IMG/VR virus record: IMGVR_UViG_3300046007_005271
Span: 1-34,400 of that record
Length of the DNA stretch: 34,400 nt
Reading direction: 5' to 3' (one strand)
Source of the DNA: a virus
In this document: positions 3,395 through 30,245 of the stretch, one piece after another
How the letters are laid out: each line of letters starts with the position of its first letter
Position numbering within the stretch: position 1 is the stretch's first letter
Made by a program: the position numbers and the translations under genes
The notes under the pieces: model-generated
Told to the model about the DNA's origin: nothing
The model's input: the letters and a program-made list of their open reading frames with translations, nothing else
The model's database searches: none

Positions 3395-3470
3395 GCCGGC
3401 GTAGCTCAGTAGGTAGAGCAACGGATTTGTAACCCGTAGGTCGGGCGTTCGATTCGCTCCGCCGGCACCA
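3395..3470 (+). tRNA. tRNA-Thr (anticodon UGU), CCA encoded
   Basis: A complete 76-nt cloverleaf. Acceptor stem GCCGGCG (3395-3401) pairs with CGCCGGC (3460-3466), followed by A and an encoded CCA (3468-3470). The D arm is GCTC/GAGC; the anticodon stem ACGGA/CCCGT has one A-C mismatch next to the loop; the loop TTTGTAA carries TGT at 3428-3430. The T arm is GGGCG/CGCTC around TTCGATT. The sequence closely follows bacterial tRNA-Thr(UGU). It lies only five bases after the upstream stop codon and is followed at once by a terminator. Confidence 0.95.
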
Positions 3471-11541: not shown

Positions 11542-13665
<2,124 letters not shown>

Positions 13666-13677
13666 CGGAAAATAAAA

Positions 13678-14001
13678 ATGGCTAACTTATATACATGGCA
13701 GATTATGCAATTGGATTGCTACCCTGAAAAAGACGGGCGCAAAGATGTTGTTTTTACCATCCATTGGAGAAGGGCCGCGACAAATGGAGTAAAAAGCGCC
13801 GATATTTATGGTTCTAAGTCCGTTATATTAGACCCGAATGAACCGTTTATTCCTTACAATGAATTAACAGAATCTCAAGTTGTTTCTTGGCTGGAAAATT
13901 CAATCAGTCAAGAAATTCTCGCCCAGCAAATTGCTTCTCTTGATAAGCAAATTGAAGATCAAATCAATCCACCAATTATCTATCCTGCGCTTCCTTGGTA
14001 A
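13678..14001 (+). CDS. DUF7936-like phage protein
   Basis: 107 residues. Pattern: TWQIMQLDCYPEKDGRKDVVF, IHWRRAATNG, YGSKSVILD, FIPYNELTESQVVSWLENS and a C-terminal helix ending in IIYPALPW. I know this as a small family that follows fibre genes in many environmental phages, recently named DUF7936. It has no known catalytic residues. Its constant place after the fibre suggests a fibre-assembly or fibre-associated role. It starts 12 bases after the fibre stop. The family name is from memory and should be checked. Confidence 0.75.
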   Translation: MANLYTWQIMQLDCYPEKDGRKDVVFTIHWRRAATNGVKSADIYGSKSVILDPNEPFIPYNELTESQVVSWLENSISQEILAQQIASLDKQIEDQINPPIIYPALPW

Positions 14002-14265: not shown

Positions 14266-16614
14266 ATGCCGGTTAGTTTTGAAAGCGGTAAGGCTTATAT
14301 CCGTGAATTTATAAACAAAATAAGCCATTCCAAGATGATTGATATTGGGGTTGGATGCGGGACATATGCTAAAATGTTTCCTGAATCTCACTGGACTGGC
14401 GTAGAAATTTTTGGTCCGTATGTAGAAAAATTTGGTCTCAAAAAAATATATCAAAAATTAATTATAGAGGACGCCCGTAAAATTGATTATTTATCTTTAG
14501 GCTCATTTGATGTCGCTATAGCTGGAGATATTCTTGAGCATATGTCGGCAAATGAAGCTAAAGAACTTTTAGAAAACTTAAAAAATATTTCTGACACAGT
14601 TATTGTTAGTATCCCCCTTGGGCATCATCCTCAGGGAGAAGTTGACGGAAATATTTATGAGTCTCATGTAGAAGACTGGAGCGATAATAAAGTAATAAGT
14701 ATATTTGGAATTCCGTCTGAATCTCATATTGATGGCTGTATTGGTGTTTATATTTATTCTAAAACAAAAAAATTAAAAATTTGTGTATATACAATAAGCA
14801 AAAATGAAGAAAAGTTCGTAAAAAGATGGGCAGAGTCGTCTTCTGATGCTGATGTTTTATTAATAGCTGACACCGGGAGCACGGACAGGACTGTTGAAAT
14901 AGCTAAAGAATGCGGCATTCAAGTTCATTCAATTTGCATAACACCTTGGCGTTTTGATCATGCTAGAAACGCATCCATAGCATTAATTCCAAAAGATATT
15001 GATGTTTGTATTTGCATGGATATGGATGAGGTTTTAGAGCCTGGATGGAGAGAAGAGATTGAAAGAGTTTGGGTAAGTAACACTACTAGACTAAGTTATT
15101 TTTTTGATTGGGGATGCGGGATAAAATTTAGATACGAAAAGATACATGCCAGACACGGCTATTTTTGGCATCATCCGTGCCATGAATATCCAGTCCCAGA
15201 TAAACGTATAACAGAAGTATATGCTTATACAGACAAATTACTTGTTAGCCACCATCCTGACCCAAATAAAAGCCGCGGACAGTATATGGATTTACTACAG
15301 CTCTCGGTTGATGAAGATCCTTTGTGCCCCAGAAACGCATTTTATTACGCGAGAGAGCTTTCATTTAATCGCAGGTGGCAAGAATCAATTGATGCTTGCA
15401 AAAAATACCTAGAGTTGCCGGGTGCTACTTGGGCAAATGAACGATGCTATGCCATGCGGGTTATGGCTAAATGCTATGAAGAGTTAGGAAATTCACTTGA
15501 AGCCGAAGCATGGCTTCAAAGAGCTTCGGCGGAGGCTCCGAATACAAGAGAGCCGTGGTGCCAGTTGGCTATGCTTATGTATCGTCAAAGTCGATGGCCT
15601 GAGTGCTATGCGGCTGCGAAGCGAGCTTTATCGATCACTCAAAGAGATCTTGTATATACTTGTGACCCAGAGGTATGGGGTCACTGGGCTAATGACCTTG
15701 CCAGTATTTCGGCTTGGCAGCTCGGAATGAAAGAGGAAGCTCTTGAACAAGCAGAACTAGCTGTTCAAGCGACACCTACTGATCAGAGGTTAATTAATAA
15801 TTTATCGTTCATAAAAAATACGATGGCAAATAATCATATCCCAAATATCATACACTTTATTTTTTTCTTCGGCCCTAAATCTCGCCCGTTCGGGATAATT
15901 AATTATTTATCTGTAATTGCCGCCTACGAAATACAGAAGCCAGATAAAATATATTTTTATTACAATGAAGAGCCAGTAGGAAATAAATATTGGGATGGTA
16001 TGAAGAAATATGTAGAAATGGTTAGAGTCGATCCTCCGACTGAATATGAAGGCGTATCTCTTGATGATTGGCCACAGTATCAATCCGATGTTTTAAGACT
16101 TCAAAAGCTTTACGAACATGGAGGTATATATTTAGACACAGATTGCATTTTGATGAAGCCATTAGATTGCTTCCTAAATAATGACGTAGTTATGAGCGGA
16201 CATATAGCTGGCGTATCGAAGTCTCCGTGGCATAAGGTCGACTCGATGCCGGCTTCGACCATAATAGCGCGCCCTAGAGCTAAATTTATAAAAATCTGGC
16301 TATCAAAACTCGCCGACGGATTGAGGAAAAATGTCTGGGCTTGGCATATCGTTAATTTACCTGTTGAAATATATAAGGATAGGCCAGATCTGATTACCCT
16401 TTTAGAGATGGAAGTTTTCATGCCCTTCGACTTCAAAAATGAGAAAATGCTAGAGCCAGATCAGACCGAGGAGGCCTTAAGGGAAATCAAAGACTCATAT
16501 GCCATCCATATGTGGGATTCGGTATGGTTTAACCCAATTAAGAAGATTGACGAAAACTATATCCAGAATGTAGACACTGGTTTCACCTTAACCGTTCGTA
16601 AATATTTGGAATAA
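14266..16614 (+). CDS. Methyltransferase-GT2-TPR-GT32 fusion enzyme
   Basis: 782 residues with four parts. (1) About 1-165: class I SAM methyltransferase, motif I MIDIGVGCGTYA (24-35) and a GDILEHM motif (87-93). (2) About 170-345: GT2 glycosyltransferase, ICVYTISKNEE (172-182), ADTGSTDRT (201-209) and the metal-binding DMDE (252-255). (3) About 350-515: TPR-like helical repeats. (4) About 524-782: GT32/OCH1-like glycosyltransferase, IPNIIHFIFFF (525-535) and SDVLRLQKLYEHGGIYLDTD (607-626) with a DTD catalytic motif. It should transfer two sugars and methylate one product. The TPR part may hold the protein substrate. It lies two small genes after the collagen-like fibre. Codon use is strongly AT-rich except in the TPR part, which suggests assembly from modules. 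Domain calls are well supported; the substrate is inferred. Confidence 0.88.
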   Translation: MPVSFESGKAYIREFINKISHSKMIDIGVGCGTYAKMFPESHWTGVEIFGPYVEKFGLKKIYQKLIIEDARKIDYLSLGSFDVAIAGDILEHMSANEAKELLENLKNISDTVIVSIPLGHHPQGEVDGNIYESHVEDWSDNKVISIFGIPSESHIDGCIGVYIYSKTKKLKICVYTISKNEEKFVKRWAESSSDADVLLIADTGSTDRTVEIAKECGIQVHSICITPWRFDHARNASIALIPKDIDVCICMDMDEVLEPGWREEIERVWVSNTTRLSYFFDWGCGIKFRYEKIHARHGYFWHHPCHEYPVPDKRITEVYAYTDKLLVSHHPDPNKSRGQYMDLLQLSVDEDPLCPRNAFYYARELSFNRRWQESIDACKKYLELPGATWANERCYAMRVMAKCYEELGNSLEAEAWLQRASAEAPNTREPWCQLAMLMYRQSRWPECYAAAKRALSITQRDLVYTCDPEVWGHWANDLASISAWQLGMKEEALEQAELAVQATPTDQRLINNLSFIKNTMANNHIPNIIHFIFFFGPKSRPFGIINYLSVIAAYEIQKPDKIYFYYNEEPVGNKYWDGMKKYVEMVRVDPPTEYEGVSLDDWPQYQSDVLRLQKLYEHGGIYLDTDCILMKPLDCFLNNDVVMSGHIAGVSKSPWHKVDSMPASTIIARPRAKFIKIWLSKLADGLRKNVWAWHIVNLPVEIYKDRPDLITLLEMEVFMPFDFKNEKMLEPDQTEEALREIKDSYAIHMWDSVWFNPIKKIDENYIQNVDTGFTLTVRKYLE

Positions 16615-19449: not shown

Positions 19450-21969
19450 ATGCCGCACACAACACTTAAACTTCACCCGGGCGTTGATCAGAATAGAACG
19501 CTTGCTCTTAACGAAGCGGCTATTTCGACGACTCAACTTGTCAGATTTGTTCCTGACAAACAGGGTCTTGGGCTCGTTCAAAAACTTGGCGGATGGCAAA
19601 AATTTCCAAATTCCACTGCATCTAATTCCGGGCCGACAACCCGTGCACTTTGGGCATGGCAAGACACAAATGCAGTTTCTCACTTAGCGGTTGGAAATCA
19701 ATCGACTTTATCTTACGCGGGGACGGCTACGGTTTCTGGCTCAAGCGTTACGTTGCCAGCAAGTTTTACCGGAGGATCTCCTGCTTCATCTGTAAATAAT
19801 TTTTATGTTGGATGGTTTATAACAATTGGATCAACATCTTATAAGATTACTGCTTATAATGGGTCAACCCGGGTCGCTACTGTAAATGTAGCTCCTCCGG
19901 CTGGGTCGCAATCATTCACTCTTGTTAACCCTACATTGATTGTTATTACAAACGGGCAGAAAAGTTCAATTTCTCCACAAGGCAGGACGTCAAGCGTCGC
20001 TCCCCAATTTAGCACTACAGTTGGCTCAGATGTTGTTCAAATATATGATGCCAATTCAAATATAACTGATTACGATTATGTTTTCATTGAAACTCAAATT
20101 AGTGTAGGTGGATTGTTTCTTTTTGGTCTTTATAGATGCTCATTTGTTGATCCAGACAGATACACCATACAGGCTACAAATTTAGATGGAACTCCTCAGT
20201 ATGCAACGGCTAACGTCGTAAATGGCGGAGTTACTCCCAAATTTACATTTTCTCCAGGTCAGCAATATTCTGATGTTTATATCCCAAACAATCCATATGT
20301 TGTTGGAGATGTTTTCCCTGTTCTTGTGCCGACAACAATCGGAGATACAACTCTTTATGGTAATTATACAGTATCGGAGACTAATCCCCCTGCCGTAGAT
20401 ACATTCCGAATATTTTTACCCAATGGCGCAAATAGCGTCGCAACAACTTCAACATCCGGAACCGGCGCTACGGCCATAATTGGTTTTTCTGCGACTTACA
20501 AATTTTTAGCTGGAAATACGGTTATAGCAGCAAACATAGACCCCGCTGGATATAATGGTGTTTACGCAATAACGGCCGCGACTTCTAATACAGTTGCTTA
20601 TTTAAATGCGACCACTGGATCAATGGTTTCTGCTGGTATTTTGTTTGCTGTTGATGGATATTTAAATGATGGCAATGCTTATTTTCAATATTACATTACT
20701 CCTGGCCCGCCGACATTTGGTGTTGGATATGGCCTTGGAGGTTACGGTGCCGGCGGATATGGCATAGGCGGCTCTTCGCCTATAACGCCTGGTGGCACTC
20801 CAATAACTGCAACAGATTGGACACTTGATAATTGGGGGAGCATATTGATCGCTTGCCCTGTCGGCGGCGCAATTTATTCATGGTCCACAGATACCGTAAA
20901 TGGCGCAGCCACAATCATTAACAATTCTCCAATTGCTAATGACGGTATATTTGTTGCAATGCCTCAACGTCAAATCGTTGCGTGGGGATCAACATTTACA
21001 GGAATTCTTGACCCCCTTCTTATACGTTGGTGCGATGTAAATAATTATGAGGAGTGGACGGCTTCTCTTACAAATCAGGCTGGATCTTATCGTCTTCCAA
21101 AAGGATCTAAGGTTGTAGGATGTATCCAGGGCCCTCAACAGGGTTTAGTTTGGACGGATTTGGGCATATGGGCCATGCAGTATGTCGGTCCTCCGTATGT
21201 GTATCAATTCAACGAAATTGGCACAGGATGTGGGTTAATATCTCGCAAAGCCGCCGCGTCGATGAACGGAACCGTATATTGGATGAGTCAGAGCCAATTT
21301 TACCGCCTTGGCGGAAGTGGGGTAGAGCCAATCCGGTGTCCTGTGTGGGACGTTATATTCCAGGACTTGGATACAACTAACTTAAATAAGATAAGAATTG
21401 CTCCAAATTCTGCTTTTGGGGAAATTACTTGGTATTATCCAACAATGAGCAATGGTGGAGAAGTCAGTCATTATGTAAAATATAATGTCGTTCTTGATCA
21501 GTGGGATTTTGGCGCTCTTGTTAGAACGTCTTGGATAAATCAATCTGTTTTTGGCCCACCTATTGGATCTGACGGAACTTATATTTACCAACATGAGACA
21601 TCTAAGAACGCGGATGGCTCGGCTATGATTTCAAGTTTTCAAACTGGTTATTTCGTATTGTCGGAGGGAGAGTGGAAAGTATTTGTTGATCAAATTTGGC
21701 CCGACATGAAATGGGGATACTATGACGGAACGCAAAATGCGTCGGTTCAAATAACATTTTATGTCGCAGACTATCCTGGCGATGCAGTATCTGCTCCTTC
21801 GGGTGGTATTAGGACATATGGCCCATTTACGATGACGGACGCGACTACATTTATAACTCCAAGATTTCGCGGCAGGCTAATGTCTATTAAAATACAAAGC
21901 AGCGATCTTAATTCATTCTGGAGAATTGGAGCTATGCGTTATCGGTTTCAGCAAGATGGAAAATTTTAA
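19450..21969 (+). CDS. Tail hub/nozzle protein (P22 gp10-like)
   Basis: 839 residues. The N-terminus LKLHPGVDQNRTLALNEAAI with WAWQDTNAVSHLAVG opens a beta-propeller. About residues 100-420 carry inserted beta domains. Residues 424-441 are a Gly/Tyr-rich linker of GYG-x-GG units. From about 450 the conserved part reads DNWGSILIACPVGGAIYSW, then LIRWCDVNNYEEW, LVWTDLGIWAMQYVGPPYVY, GCGLISRKAAASMNGTVYWM and a C-terminal FRGRLMSIKIQSSDL. This matches P22 gp10-like packaged-DNA stabilisation and T7 gp12-like nozzle proteins. It closes the short tail channel and supports a podovirus-type particle. The stop overlaps the next ATG (TAATG). Confidence 0.8.
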   Translation: MPHTTLKLHPGVDQNRTLALNEAAISTTQLVRFVPDKQGLGLVQKLGGWQKFPNSTASNSGPTTRALWAWQDTNAVSHLAVGNQSTLSYAGTATVSGSSVTLPASFTGGSPASSVNNFYVGWFITIGSTSYKITAYNGSTRVATVNVAPPAGSQSFTLVNPTLIVITNGQKSSISPQGRTSSVAPQFSTTVGSDVVQIYDANSNITDYDYVFIETQISVGGLFLFGLYRCSFVDPDRYTIQATNLDGTPQYATANVVNGGVTPKFTFSPGQQYSDVYIPNNPYVVGDVFPVLVPTTIGDTTLYGNYTVSETNPPAVDTFRIFLPNGANSVATTSTSGTGATAIIGFSATYKFLAGNTVIAANIDPAGYNGVYAITAATSNTVAYLNATTGSMVSAGILFAVDGYLNDGNAYFQYYITPGPPTFGVGYGLGGYGAGGYGIGGSSPITPGGTPITATDWTLDNWGSILIACPVGGAIYSWSTDTVNGAATIINNSPIANDGIFVAMPQRQIVAWGSTFTGILDPLLIRWCDVNNYEEWTASLTNQAGSYRLPKGSKVVGCIQGPQQGLVWTDLGIWAMQYVGPPYVYQFNEIGTGCGLISRKAAASMNGTVYWMSQSQFYRLGGSGVEPIRCPVWDVIFQDLDTTNLNKIRIAPNSAFGEITWYYPTMSNGGEVSHYVKYNVVLDQWDFGALVRTSWINQSVFGPPIGSDGTYIYQHETSKNADGSAMISSFQTGYFVLSEGEWKVFVDQIWPDMKWGYYDGTQNASVQITFYVADYPGDAVSAPSGGIRTYGPFTMTDATTFITPRFRGRLMSIKIQSSDLNSFWRIGAMRYRFQQDGKF

Positions 21970-23428: not shown

Positions 23429-26400
23429 ATGTGCGGGAAAGGCCTTTCTCAAACAACCCAGCAGACAGCGATGCCATCCCTGGCAGGGATGATGGCGTAT
23501 AATCAGGCTATGAGCCGCGTTGGAGCTGCGACTTCCAAGCCTTTCCAGCGATATAGCGAAGATCCAACAGCGTATGTGGCAAGCTTAACCCCAGTCCAGC
23601 AGCAGGCCATTTCTAATGTGGCTGCTATGCAGGGCATGACTCAGCCTTACTATCAAACGGCCGGCGGTCTTATGGGGGCGGCGGCTGGGTTGACAGGCGC
23701 TGGCGCTGGCGGGGTTGGTAGATTAACCGGCGCTCAAATAGCAGAATATATGAGCCCGTATATGTCTCAGGTTGTTGATCCTGTGCGGGCTGCTATCCAG
23801 CAACAATCTGGCCAGCAATTGGCCCGCCAGCAGGCGGAAGCGATAAGAGGTGGGGCTTTCGGCGGGGAGAGAGCTGGACTTCAAAGATCGCAGCTTCTTG
23901 GTCAGCAAGCTTTAGGCCTTGGTCAAGCTTTAAGCCCTCTTTATCAGACCGGGTATGGTCAGGCTCTTCAAACAGCATTGGGTCAGCAAAACGTTGAAGC
24001 TGCTAATCTCCAGCGTCTCCTTGGCGCTGGGGCGCAAATGGGTCAACTTGGAACCTCTACGGGAGCACTTGGAACGGCTGCCCAGCAGGCCGCCCTTCAG
24101 CAAGCTCAGGCTCAACTTCAGGCCGCGACTCTCCAACAACAGACAGAGACAGCTCAAAAACAGGCTATGTATGGAGAGTTTCAGAAAGAGCGCATGTACC
24201 CGCTTCAGGTGGCGCAGCTTTATGCCCAGACGGCAGGTGCGCTTGGCCCTCTGATGGGTTCGACGTCAATGGGCTATCAGCAATTGCCATTTTTCGGCGC
24301 TGTGGCCACAGGCGGCGCTATTAAGGGTTATGAAGAAGGTCTCGGAGCGGCTCGCATGGGCGGCGCTGTTCGCGAAGGAGGCGATTTCGCCCGCGGTGGA
24401 TATGCTGATGGCGGATCGCCAGATTTCGCCTATCTGGTTGAGTCGCATCGCGCTGGCATCATGCCGAAAGTGGAAGACGTCGCTTTCCCAACTGGCGAGT
24501 TCCGCACAAGTGAAGCCCCGAAGATGGGCGCTATGCCGGAACGGCAGGCTGGTCTTATTGGTTCCGCTGTGAAGTATGCTATCAGCGACCCGGAATCAGC
24601 CATGAAAAAAGCCAAGGGCCTTTATACAGGCTATGGCGAAGTAAAAGATTGGCTGGAGAAGTCAGGCTATCTTCCGGGCAAAGCCGAGGGCGGCGATGTC
24701 GAAGATGACGCCATGAACAAGCTTCTGAGCGCGCCTATCCAGACGTCGAAGCCGATGCAGGCCCCGCAGCCACAGCAGAAAGAGGGCAGCGGTCTCCTTG
24801 GCTCGCTGGCTAAGATGGGCGCGAGCGCCGCTGCTAATTACTTCCTGCCGGGCTCTGGCGCGGTCGTCTCTGGCGGCCTGAGCGCGCTTGGCTTGGCTGA
24901 TGGTGGTAGAGCCGGATACGCGGACCGTGGCGCAGTAAAAGAAGATGAAGACATTTTCGAGCGCGGCATTATTCCGGCTGAATCAGCCGGTCGTCAGCTG
25001 ACAAGAGAAGGTCATCCGTTACTGTCCCCAAAAGGGGCTACTGGCATTGCCCAGATTATGCCCGGAACGGCTCCTGAAGCGGCAAAGCTCGCTGGCCTGC
25101 CGATGGACATGGAGCGTCTGAAATATGACGAAGGCTATAACCGGGCTTTAGGCCGCGCTTATTTTGGCGAGCAGCTTCGTCAATTTGGAACGCCGGAATT
25201 AGCCGCTGCGGCTTATAACGCTGGCCCCGGTCGAGTTCGTCAGGCTCTTGCGCGTGCAGAGCGAGAAGGTGGCGATGTTATGAGCTACCTGCCGGCGGAA
25301 ACGCGGGCATATGTTCCGACGGTTATGGGCAAGGCTGGTCTTGGAGGCGGCAATATAGATCGCTCTCTTGCCGGTATTCCGAAAGGCGACCCGCGCCGTG
25401 AGATCACGGCCAGCGCAGCGCAGCCGACAGTTGGTGGCATTGTTCCTGTGAAGCAGGAAGGCGCGGAGCCGACAGACTGGCGTCAGGTTGTGCTTCCTGT
25501 TCTGTCTGGTCTTGGCGCGATGGCCGGATCCCGCAGCAAATATCTTGGCTCGGCGCTCCTTGAGGGGCTTGGCGCTGGCGCGAAATCCTACATGGACGTC
25601 GGCCGCCAGATCGAAGAGCAGAAGAAGCTCGGCGAAGAAGTTGGGACGCAGCGCGAGACGACCGGCCTTGTTCGCGAAGAAGCCGGCAAGACCGCGGCAG
25701 GAACACTTCGCGAAGTTCTCGAGTCTGGCAAACTTGGCATCCAGCAGTTCGGTCCTGCCGATGCTCCGTTCTACATTGTCACGCTTGAAGACGGCACGAG
25801 AATGCCGCTTGAGCAGTGGATGGAAAAGGGCGGCAATCTTATTGGCGGGTCCGTCGCTGCCGACGTCGCCCGTCGCCTTTCAGCAGGCAAGACAGGCGCG
25901 ACTTATCAGCAGCCCTCGCCCCCTGCCGCCGCGGCGGTCGAAACGGCAAAAGATATTTCTGCCGTCCCTGAAGGCAAAACTATCCCGACGAAGGAAGCCG
26001 AAGGCGTCCCTGCGCCGAAGACCGTTGCGCCTAAGCAGCCTCCACTGACGAAGCCTATGGAAGCCCCGACGATGACGCCGGGTGTTGTCTACGACGATGA
26101 ATCTCGCAAGCAGGCGCAGGAAAACAAAAAGATCAAATTCTCGTCGGACCCATCTCTTGTCAGGACGGCCGAAGAAGCCAGAAAGATATATGGCCCGAAA
26201 ACGATCTCCGGCGCTCAAACAGCTAGAGAAAATACGCCATATCTGAATGAGCTTTCTGAGACCCTGTCAAAAGCCTATAAGGGTAAAGGTCTTGCGACGC
26301 CCGGCTACGGCGCAGCTGTTCGCTCTCAGGCGATCAAGGCGGCAGATACAATCTATCGCGCGCTTGGAGGCGAAGGTAGCTTGAGCAATCTACCGGAAGC

Positions 26401-26866
26401 GGCCGATGTCACGGGTAAAATCACAAGCCTTCTTGGCCGTGAGTCTGCCGCAAGCGCCGGTCAAGAAAGTTATGCGGCTCTTAACGCCATTCGCGAAGCC
26501 ATTCCTAATTTGGAAATGGACCCGCGCGCTGGTGCCAAGCTTGCTGCTGAATTGATGGTTCTCCGCAAAAGAGCGATCGATCGCGAAGAGCACATGAAAG
26601 CTTGGTCTCGTGATTCCGGCGGCGTCCTTCTTGATGCGGCGAGCAACTTCTCTGAAAAGAACCCTGATGCAAAATATCAGGTCGCGCAGAAAGTAATCTC
26701 TGACATGATGATCCGTCATCCTGATGCTTTCGAGCGTATTATGTCTGGTACTGTTCCGAGAGAAAGCATTGAGAGACAGCTTCGCGCTCAATACGGATCT
26801 GGCATTCCAGAGGGTATTTCTGAGTTCTTCCCTTCCCTTCAGACATCGAGAAGAAAGACACCGTAA
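23429..26866 (+). CDS. Large internal virion/ejection protein with lytic transglycosylase domain
   Basis: 1145 residues. The first ~290 are Gln/Ala/Leu-rich helices, opening with MCGKGLSQTT. Residues about 290-505 carry many double-Gly motifs (VATGGAIKG, ARGGYADGG, KAEGGDVED, LADGGRAGY). Residues about 508-635 form an SLT-type lytic transglycosylase: IIPAESAG with catalytic Glu518, GATGIAQIMPGTA (537-549) and AAAYNAGPGRV (593-603). The remainder is helical with a Pro-rich linker around 815-890. Such proteins are packaged and ejected to open peptidoglycan, like T7 gp16. It overlaps the following internal protein by TAATG. Confidence 0.85.
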   Translation: MCGKGLSQTTQQTAMPSLAGMMAYNQAMSRVGAATSKPFQRYSEDPTAYVASLTPVQQQAISNVAAMQGMTQPYYQTAGGLMGAAAGLTGAGAGGVGRLTGAQIAEYMSPYMSQVVDPVRAAIQQQSGQQLARQQAEAIRGGAFGGERAGLQRSQLLGQQALGLGQALSPLYQTGYGQALQTALGQQNVEAANLQRLLGAGAQMGQLGTSTGALGTAAQQAALQQAQAQLQAATLQQQTETAQKQAMYGEFQKERMYPLQVAQLYAQTAGALGPLMGSTSMGYQQLPFFGAVATGGAIKGYEEGLGAARMGGAVREGGDFARGGYADGGSPDFAYLVESHRAGIMPKVEDVAFPTGEFRTSEAPKMGAMPERQAGLIGSAVKYAISDPESAMKKAKGLYTGYGEVKDWLEKSGYLPGKAEGGDVEDDAMNKLLSAPIQTSKPMQAPQPQQKEGSGLLGSLAKMGASAAANYFLPGSGAVVSGGLSALGLADGGRAGYADRGAVKEDEDIFERGIIPAESAGRQLTREGHPLLSPKGATGIAQIMPGTAPEAAKLAGLPMDMERLKYDEGYNRALGRAYFGEQLRQFGTPELAAAAYNAGPGRVRQALARAEREGGDVMSYLPAETRAYVPTVMGKAGLGGGNIDRSLAGIPKGDPRREITASAAQPTVGGIVPVKQEGAEPTDWRQVVLPVLSGLGAMAGSRSKYLGSALLEGLGAGAKSYMDVGRQIEEQKKLGEEVGTQRETTGLVREEAGKTAAGTLREVLESGKLGIQQFGPADAPFYIVTLEDGTRMPLEQWMEKGGNLIGGSVAADVARRLSAGKTGATYQQPSPPAAAAVETAKDISAVPEGKTIPTKEAEGVPAPKTVAPKQPPLTKPMEAPTMTPGVVYDDESRKQAQENKKIKFSSDPSLVRTAEEARKIYGPKTISGAQTARENTPYLNELSETLSKAYKGKGLATPGYGAAVRSQAIKAADTIYRALGGEGSLSNLPEAADVTGKITSLLGRESAASAGQESYAALNAIREAIPNLEMDPRAGAKLAAELMVLRKRAIDREEHMKAWSRDSGGVLLDAASNFSEKNPDAKYQVAQKVISDMMIRHPDAFERIMSGTVPRESIERQLRAQYGSGIPEGISEFFPSLQTSRRKTP

Positions 26867-29713: not shown

Positions 29714-29838
29714 TGCACCCTGATACATGGGCTATGATCGTCGCTATGTCGAAAGCGTTTATCATGGTCAATGTGTGTATTTATGCCTTCAAGTTGGGGC
29801 AGGCGGCATATCAAGCCGCCGCTCCCTATATGAATTAG
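29710..29838 (+). CDS. Tiny membrane protein after the collar fibre
   Basis: 42 residues from ATG 29710, overlapping the fibre stop as ATGA (ATG 29713 is an equal alternative). MMHPDTWAMIVAMSKAFIMV and the following NVCIYAFKLG form one hydrophobic helix. No function recognised. Coupling to the fibre gene and the intact frame support it as real, but its small size keeps confidence moderate. Its stop overlaps the convergent GcrA-like stop. Confidence 0.5.
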   Translation: MMHPDTWAMIVAMSKAFIMVNVCIYAFKLGQAAYQAAAPYMN

Positions 29839-30245
29839 CGTCGTATTGGCTGATAGCAGAGCTTATAATGATCTTTGCAGTATGAAGCCTTATCGATATG
29901 TTTGCCGCAATAAAGCACTGTCGCTGCTTTTTCTTCTGATACGATATATCGGCAGGACATATATTTCAGCTCTAATAAAGTAATACCCTCCGGCATCTCG
30001 ACGGCGCCCATCTTCAGAATAATTGATTCTGTCTTTTTGGCCTTCTTCTTTACGACCCGATTCTCAGAATGACGTGAGAGATCAGCCCCGCTGGCCCGTA
30101 GCCTGTGAACGACACCAATCACTGAATTTCTGGATATCCCGATCTTGTCGCCTATCTTGGAGGCCGCTATTCCGTCTTGCCACATGGACACAATCTGCTG
30201 GCGTTTTTCTTCGGTCATTTTCCGGACGCCCTTATATTCACGCAT
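29835..30245 (-). CDS. GcrA-family cell-cycle regulator homologue
   Basis: 136 residues. An N-terminal helix-turn-helix reads TEEKRQQIVSMWQDGIAASK (11-30) and ISRNSVIGVVHRLRASG (37-53), the GcrA DNA-binding signature. After a Lys-rich linker comes the GcrA C-terminal region with LLELKYMSCRYIV (90-102), YCGKHI and SYCKDHYKLCYQP, including Cys98, Cys113, Cys123 and His126. Host GcrA binds RNA polymerase sigma-70 and GANTC-methylated promoters in Alphaproteobacteria. A phage copy could redirect that program. AAGGA lies eight bases before the ATG. It is divergent from the gene at 30311. Family certain; effect on host is inference. Confidence 0.88.
   Translation of the reverse strand: MREYKGVRKMTEEKRQQIVSMWQDGIAASKIGDKIGISRNSVIGVVHRLRASGADLSRHSENRVVKKKAKKTESIILKMGAVEMPEGITLLELKYMSCRYIVSEEKAATVLYCGKHIDKASYCKDHYKLCYQPIRR

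Follow-up and report, generated by a model that had tools for sequence, protein, structure and literature searches.

The DNA analysed here (the window) is a 34,400-base virus fragment, IMG/VR record IMGVR_UViG_3300046007_005271, in which a gene for a 782-amino acid enzyme containing a methyltransferase domain and two glycosyltransferase domains lies downstream of a gene for a threonine-rich collagen-like fibre, its proposed substrate. The late genes follow the order major head protein, tail spike with a pectate-lyase fold, collagen-like fibre, DUF7936 protein, and the 782-amino acid enzyme, after which come a small gene, an endolysin, tail proteins, an internal virion protein, and a collar fibre. 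The features of the fibre and of the enzyme are listed below.

11557..13665, + strand: collagen-like fibre, 702 amino acids, proposed substrate (Pfam Collagen, 102.7 bits, E = 8.7e-30; PHROG tail fibre matches)
11683..12129, + strand: Gly-X-Y tracts 1 to 5, with 10, 11, 6, 11, and 5 triplets (triplet counts)
12286..12690, + strand: longest Gly-X-Y tract, 45 triplets, Thr at position Y in 43 of 45 (triplet counts)
14266..16614, + strand: enzyme, 782 amino acids, methyltransferase, GT2-TPR, and GT32 (single uninterrupted frame, Pfam, relatives, AlphaFold2 model)
14266..14763, + strand: predicted class I S-adenosylmethionine (SAM) methyltransferase, residues 1–166, optional module (invariant D-x-G-x-G-x-G in 18 relatives; Pfam matches in 18 of 18; methyltransferases in PDB)
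14338-14361, + strand: SAM motif IDIGVGCG, residues 25–32 (sequence motif)
14767..15270, + strand: GT2 (GT-A) catalytic domain, residues 168–335, constant core (PF00535 above cut-off; 34 diverse members; SunS/ThuS fold)
14869-14886, + strand: DTGSTD motif, residues 202–207 (sequence motif in GT2)
15019-15030, + strand: DxD motif DMDE, residues 252–255 (sequence motif in GT2)
15283..15828, + strand: TPR-type helical repeats, residues 340–521, part of the constant core (PF07719 above cut-off; ten helices in the model; TPR and O-GlcNAc transferase (OGT) matches in PDB)
15832..16611, + strand: GT32-type glycosyltransferase, residues 523–782, optional module (PF04488 above cut-off)
16135-16143, + strand: GT32 DxD motif DTD, residues 624–626 (sequence motif)

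Domain structure of the enzyme and composition of the fibre

An earlier note on this DNA, made from the letters alone, had described the enzyme as four domains in one frame, and this description held: the motifs lie where it had placed them, Pfam, the relatives, and the structure model agree, and the four-domain anatomy is far beyond chance. Glycos_transf_2 (PF00535), TPR_2 (PF07719), and Gly_transf_sug (PF04488) scored 27.5, 30.4, and 39.3 bits against cut-offs of 23.3, 27, and 23, respectively. The methyltransferase of the window fell below the cut-off for Methyltransf_25 (20.1 versus 27 bits), whereas that of a relative (L028) exceeded it (40.1 versus 27 bits); Pfam methyltransferase models matched 18 of 18 relatives, with D26, G28, G30, and G32 invariant, and on this comparison the predicted methyltransferase is secure at the family level. 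The DTGS and DxD (DxDE) motifs of GT2 were invariant across 34 diverse cores, as was the DxD motif of GT32 (D102 and D104) in eight members.

The structure prediction proposed in that note was performed with AlphaFold2 and yielded folded domains throughout, with a mean predicted local distance difference test score (pLDDT) of 91.3 and a predicted template modelling score (pTM) of 0.57, the latter a value to be expected when domains are flexibly linked. The model contained soluble domains only, and the enzyme gave no sign of export. A Foldseek search with the model returned SunS and ThuS (PDB codes 7msn and 7msk) as the closest structures, followed by the TPR part of OGT. Weak Pfam matches to Lact_bio_phlase and Gb3_synth were judged to be spurious or a GT32-related tail, and marginal PDB matches of GT32 to large clostridial toxin glucosyltransferases (E about 8e-4) to reflect the shared DxD fold only. 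BFVD holds a 790-amino acid protein (A0A6J5ND39), 54% identical in structural alignment and filed as 'Glycosyltransferase, DXD sugar-binding motif'; the fusion itself had therefore already been deposited, without interpretation.

The collagen-like nature of the fibre was likewise real, with the Pfam match given above and 88 Gly-X-Y triplets in six tracts, of which 72 carry Thr at position Y and 48 carry Pro at position X. Thr is the commonest Y residue of collagens from Gram-positive bacteria, and bacterial collagens are mostly without hydroxyproline (PMC8968730). The sole tRNA gene of the window is that for tRNA-Thr (anticodon TGT/UGU; 3395-3470, + strand), which reads ACA, and ACA accounts for 54 of the 140 Thr codons of the fibre. 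The idea of a tRNA dedicated to the fibre was dropped; none was found in 31 related loci, and the tRNA-Thr gene here is possibly a coincidence.

Co-occurrence with threonine-rich collagen genes in phages

The earlier note had held that its proposal would fail if relatives of the enzyme regularly occurred in phages lacking a collagen-like or Thr-rich fibre. We fetched 70 viral relatives with the enzyme, reduced these to distinct loci, and counted a collagen gene when it lay on the same strand, given at least 6 kb or at least 4 kb of upstream sequence. Among the distinct core loci, each of the 20 with 6 kb or more of upstream sequence contained a Thr-rich collagen gene, as did 27 of the 28 with 4 kb or more, and the proposal was thus not refuted by this test. 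Collagen was often the neighbouring gene of the core: of 57 pairs, 16 had the collagen gene ending within 100 bases of the enzyme open reading frame (ORF), and the gap had a median of 541 bases. Among apparent exceptions, the sequence stops 2–4.4 kb upstream of the gene in L039, L358, and G014, and L314 carries collagen about 10 kb upstream on the same contig.

So as not to select by the enzyme, we also fetched 80 loci of sister phages through the tail gene at 19450-21969. Among contigs of at least 30 kb, seven contained both collagen and core, four contained neither, and none contained one alone (Fisher p = 0.003), so that in this search for the two genes together, which the earlier note had also suggested, phages of the same group without the enzyme were also without the fibre. 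In one of these seven contigs (G025), collagen scores below the Pfam cut-off, yet a tract of 19 triplets with 95% Thr is present. In the shorter contigs G030-G033, which have the core and no collagen, the sequence stops 0.4–4.4 kb past the gene. A tree of the phage clade and a few bacterial members (57 rows) gave collagen in 47 rows, a flank too short in nine, and no collagen in one (L314, described above); its rows include loci fetched by collagen patterns, and the sets fetched by the enzyme and by the tail gene are the cleaner tests.

A gene for a 2-oxoglutarate (2OG)-Fe(II) oxygenase lies directly upstream of the GT2-TPR gene in one relative (L055:6876-7991); its product could hydroxylate that collagen, at proline or at another residue. 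Among 72 neighbour proteins of relatives, two or three were oxygenases of this kind and one was a GT25.

Dependence on threonine rather than on collagen as such

A sample of collagen records was drawn with a pattern naming Gly and Pro only and contained 23 Thr-rich and 27 Thr-poor records; the cut-offs (0.5 and 0.2, respectively) were our own choice. The family profile matched in nine of the 23 Thr-rich records and in none of the 27 Thr-poor records (p = 0.0003), and any GT2 was found in nine and one, respectively (p = 0.003), p-values that are optimistic because the contigs are related. The Thr-poor records were not shorter in total length, and some family members in the sample belong to branches that share no more than about 22% identity with the window core. 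The fraction of Thr at position Y had a median of 0.69 for the nearest collagen, compared with 0.21 for collagens without an enzyme gene. For the largest collagen ORF per locus in this unbiased sample, the difference in Thr content was not significant (p = 0.28); for the most Thr-rich collagen per locus it was (p = 0.0008), a choice of ORF made after seeing the data, and the weight is therefore placed on the record-level test. A comparison of short fragments by DNA pattern, in which the gene accompanied 13 of 120 Thr-type collagens and three of 120 Lys/Gln-type collagens, was dropped in favour of whole records because the fragments were short.

Relatives in bacteria and in other phages

Among the best 80 bacterial relatives, mainly from Clostridia and Bacilli but also from Verrucomicrobiota, Alphaproteobacteria, and Actinomycetota, 49 loci contained a Thr-rich collagen gene, in 43 cases within 1.5 kb. 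The relatives from Clostridia and Bacilli, many of which adjoin collagen genes, were 41–47% identical to the window core. A cultured actinophage, DSL-LC01, encodes a 45% identical protein close to two collagen genes; a gene for a flavin-dependent (tryptophan-type) halogenase (L391:13436-15007) stands directly before its GT2-TPR gene, with a 4-base overlap, downstream of the collagen genes.

These associations bear on the alternative raised in the earlier note, that the enzyme modifies host surface glycans. Phage glycosyltransferases are generally assumed to remodel host surface polysaccharide, as in serotype conversion or superinfection exclusion; in PHROG 13126, relatives are classed as a moron or host-takeover beta-1,4-glycosyltransferase, and published phage papers suggest changes to the cell wall or lipopolysaccharide, or DNA protection (PMC10202952, PMC7029224). 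The proximity to the fibre would then reflect nothing but a variable host-range region. Such a role does not predict the dependence on Thr-rich collagen (9/23 versus 0/27), the same pairing in bacteria, or the joint absence in sister phages, and the best fold matches are peptide glycosyltransferases. No gtrA/gtrB-like partner was found among the window neighbours or the 72 neighbour proteins of relatives. We consider this explanation improbable for the enzyme as a whole, so that the earlier alternative is weakened, though it may still hold for the GT32 and methyltransferase domains. Glucosylation of phage DNA bases against restriction, which has been suggested for glycosyltransferases of freshwater actinophages (PMC10202952), seems very improbable here: genes for hydroxymethyl-pyrimidine synthesis were not recognised among the window genes scanned, and the peptide-binding TPR architecture, the late structural/lysis position of the gene, and the SunS-like fold all speak against a DNA substrate.

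Modular organization of the GT2-TPR family

Over all fetched loci we obtained 197 distinct cores. Relatives at 65–71% identity to the window enzyme showed the same four domains. GT2-TPR stood alone in 161 of the 197 cores; the methyltransferase preceded the core in 19, in a further two where GT32 follows in an overlapping frame, and in another two with extra sequence. Methyltransferase, core, and GT32 were fused in four cores, core and GT32 in two, and GT32 and core in the reverse order in one; the remaining six cores carried unrecognised extra sequence. In some of the relatives at 65–71% identity (L009-L012 and L016), GT32 was a separate overlapping gene. GT2-TPR is thus the constant element, to which the methyltransferase and GT32 are added as accessories by fusion, in permuted order, or as a neighbouring gene. 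Two cores, L314:6167-7924 and L484:4973-7213, contain about 200–234 extra unrecognised residues, possibly further sugar-modifying modules.

Since GT2-TPR is constant and the modules are optional, GT2-TPR is the natural initiator. It is conceivable that fibre Thr is glycosylated by this core alone, with GT32 and the methyltransferase directed elsewhere, for instance at a glycan of the host surface, at a different virion protein, or at the direct methylation of a protein. Both modules are indeed optional, given the 161 cores that stand alone, and GT32 can be a gene of its own (L009, L011, L016). The three fusion orders and the overlapping separate gene, always with the same core, are however the usual sign of one pathway, and for this reason we argue for a single pathway and regard separate targets as unlikely, although less so than a role on host polysaccharide.

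Other genes in the window

The earlier note had placed two small genes between fibre and enzyme; a single credible one was found.

13678..14001, + strand: small gene, 107 amino acids, DUF7936, between fibre and enzyme (PF25590, E = 2.4e-23; phrog_7802)

Its product is possibly a fibre chaperone or attachment protein. A 1145-amino acid protein (23429-26866, + strand) resembles an internal virion protein, with a DNA-ejection-like part at its NH2 terminus and a lytic domain, and a GcrA-like cell-cycle regulator (29835-30245, – strand; PF07750, E = 7.8e-20) points to an alphaproteobacterial host.

Proposed function

Gly-Pro-Thr peptides do not form a triple helix in water when bare but do so when galactosylated, as in the cuticle collagen of Riftia; glycosylation would therefore be a folding requirement for such collagens, not an ornament.

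A precedent is provided by SgtA of Clostridioides difficile, which consists of a GT-A domain (residues 1–260) and four TPRs (residues 262–358) and whose gene lies immediately upstream of bclA3 (PMC7157674). In vitro, SgtA transferred GlcNAc in beta-O-linkage from UDP-GlcNAc onto Thr of Gly-Pro-Thr collagen peptides; it was assayed with Mn2+, and of three donors tried only UDP-GlcNAc was used (PMC7157674). The enzymes that extend the BclA3 glycan were not found by the authors of that study (PMC7157674).

We consider it likely that the 782-amino acid enzyme serves the phage to glycosylate its own collagen-like fibre, and that it would initiate at Thr, extend the glycan, and cap it with methyl groups. 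The GT2-TPR core would bind the Gly-X-Thr chain through the TPR arch and place a first sugar on the Thr hydroxyl at position Y, probably GlcNAc in beta linkage with a UDP-sugar as donor, as SgtA does on BclA3. The COOH-terminal GT32 domain would add a second sugar, and the NH2-terminal methyltransferase would cap the glycan by O-methylation. Given that the enzyme shows no sign of export, the fibre chains would be modified in the cytoplasm of the host, either before they trimerise or while they do so. The probable benefit would be a stable triple helix without hydroxyproline together with a hydrated, protease-resistant, or disguised fibre. We infer each chemical step, the sugars, their order, and the benefit. 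The fibre as substrate is well supported: the family tracks Thr at position Y in the record-level test, and the gene context and the SgtA precedent agree with the earlier proposal that fibre Thr is the target.

Several observations weigh against this interpretation. Only 13 of the 120 short Gly-Pro-Thr collagen fragments contained this family, so that the converse association fails. The jumbo phages PaBG, HRDY3, and Lu11 encode core relatives of about 31% identity with no collagen nearby, and tandem GT2-TPR pairs in a Lacrimispora/Clostridium clade are mostly without collagen (loci L495, L501, L505, L506, L510, L526, L534, and L542); GT2-TPR alone therefore implies no collagen substrate. Both groups fall outside the phage clade in the tree. 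A glycan common to the core, GT32, and the methyltransferase is suggested only by their fusion. Finally, the published start of SgtA, taken from a primer (MITISLCMIV), resembles a more distant collagen-linked branch (L405, L438, L448), 22–23% identical to the window core, more than it does the branch of the window enzyme.

More broadly, we tentatively suggest, with the balance tilting slightly to the other side, that there is a large unrecognised class of tailed phages with glycoprotein fibres, in which dedicated initiators act on Gly-Pro-Thr collagen and fused, swappable modules (GT32, methyltransferase, and others) build a phage-specific glycan. The Gly-Pro-Thr triple helix, which has no hydroxyproline, would not fold unglycosylated, and the enzyme would therefore be an obligatory maturation factor, with the glycan as a fast-evolving surface trait.

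Phage glycosyltransferases are usually filed under host takeover or DNA protection, whereas the family described here, which is widespread, is linked to a single virion protein and even to the type of residue that it needs. If the proposal is correct, fibre glycosylation would be a general feature of many phages with collagen fibres and would help to account for the Gly-Pro-Thr richness of so many phage collagens; the annotation of PHROG 13126 would be corrected; and compact enzymes that start, extend, and methylate collagen O-glycans in the bacterial cytoplasm would become available.

Comparison with known systems

O-glycosylation of collagen Thr by a GT2-TPR enzyme (SgtA) and virus-encoded collagen glycosylation (mimivirus L230) are already known; glycosylation of fibre collagen is apparently new for phages. 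In a literature search that left most subscription journals outside its reach, we found no work linking a phage glycosyltransferase to phage collagen and no report of a methyltransferase-GT2-TPR-GT32 chain with an assigned function.

SunS and ThuS, the closest folds, resemble the window enzyme in having a GT2 domain, a peptide side chain as substrate, and a helical COOH-terminal part; unlike it, they are glycocin S-glycosyltransferases acting on Cys (or Ser) of a small bacteriocin, share 16–20% identity with it, and have no collagen context. The top sequence-level match of the catalytic domain was GmaR (PDB code 22ao; E = 1.2e-17 with the profile), the Listeria flagellin O-GlcNAc transferase, which also serves as a transcriptional anti-repressor; it too is a GT2 protein glycosyltransferase, with flagellin instead as substrate. 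Eukaryotic OGT works on a similar principle, in that its TPR superhelix accommodates extended substrates and O-GlcNAc is attached to Ser/Thr, but its catalytic domain is GT41 (GT-B) rather than GT2 (GT-A); membership of GT41 is excluded for the window enzyme, whose catalytic domain is GT2 by both sequence and fold.

Mimivirus L230 (PMC9614988) likewise combines several domains in one viral enzyme and glycosylates a collagen-like protein of the virus itself, but it is a collagen lysyl hydroxylase/glucosyltransferase with unrelated domains that targets hydroxylysine, in a virus of eukaryotes. In mycobacteriophages such as Maravista, phage-encoded glycosyltransferases have likewise been proposed to decorate the phage's own virion, with a capsid protein as the proposed target and no link to collagen (PMC11256854). 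The closest parallel is SgtA-BclA3, which shares with the window system the order GT-A then TPR, a gene adjoining that for a Gly-Pro-Thr collagen-like protein, and the proposed initiation at Thr, a likeness drawn from published layout and gene context rather than from full-sequence alignment. SgtA differs in its length of 358 amino acids, in having neither methyltransferase nor GT32, and in serving a spore coat instead of a virion. By this analogy, the window enzyme may represent a phage form of the SgtA type of collagen O-glycosylation, in which extension and methyl capping are built into the enzyme.
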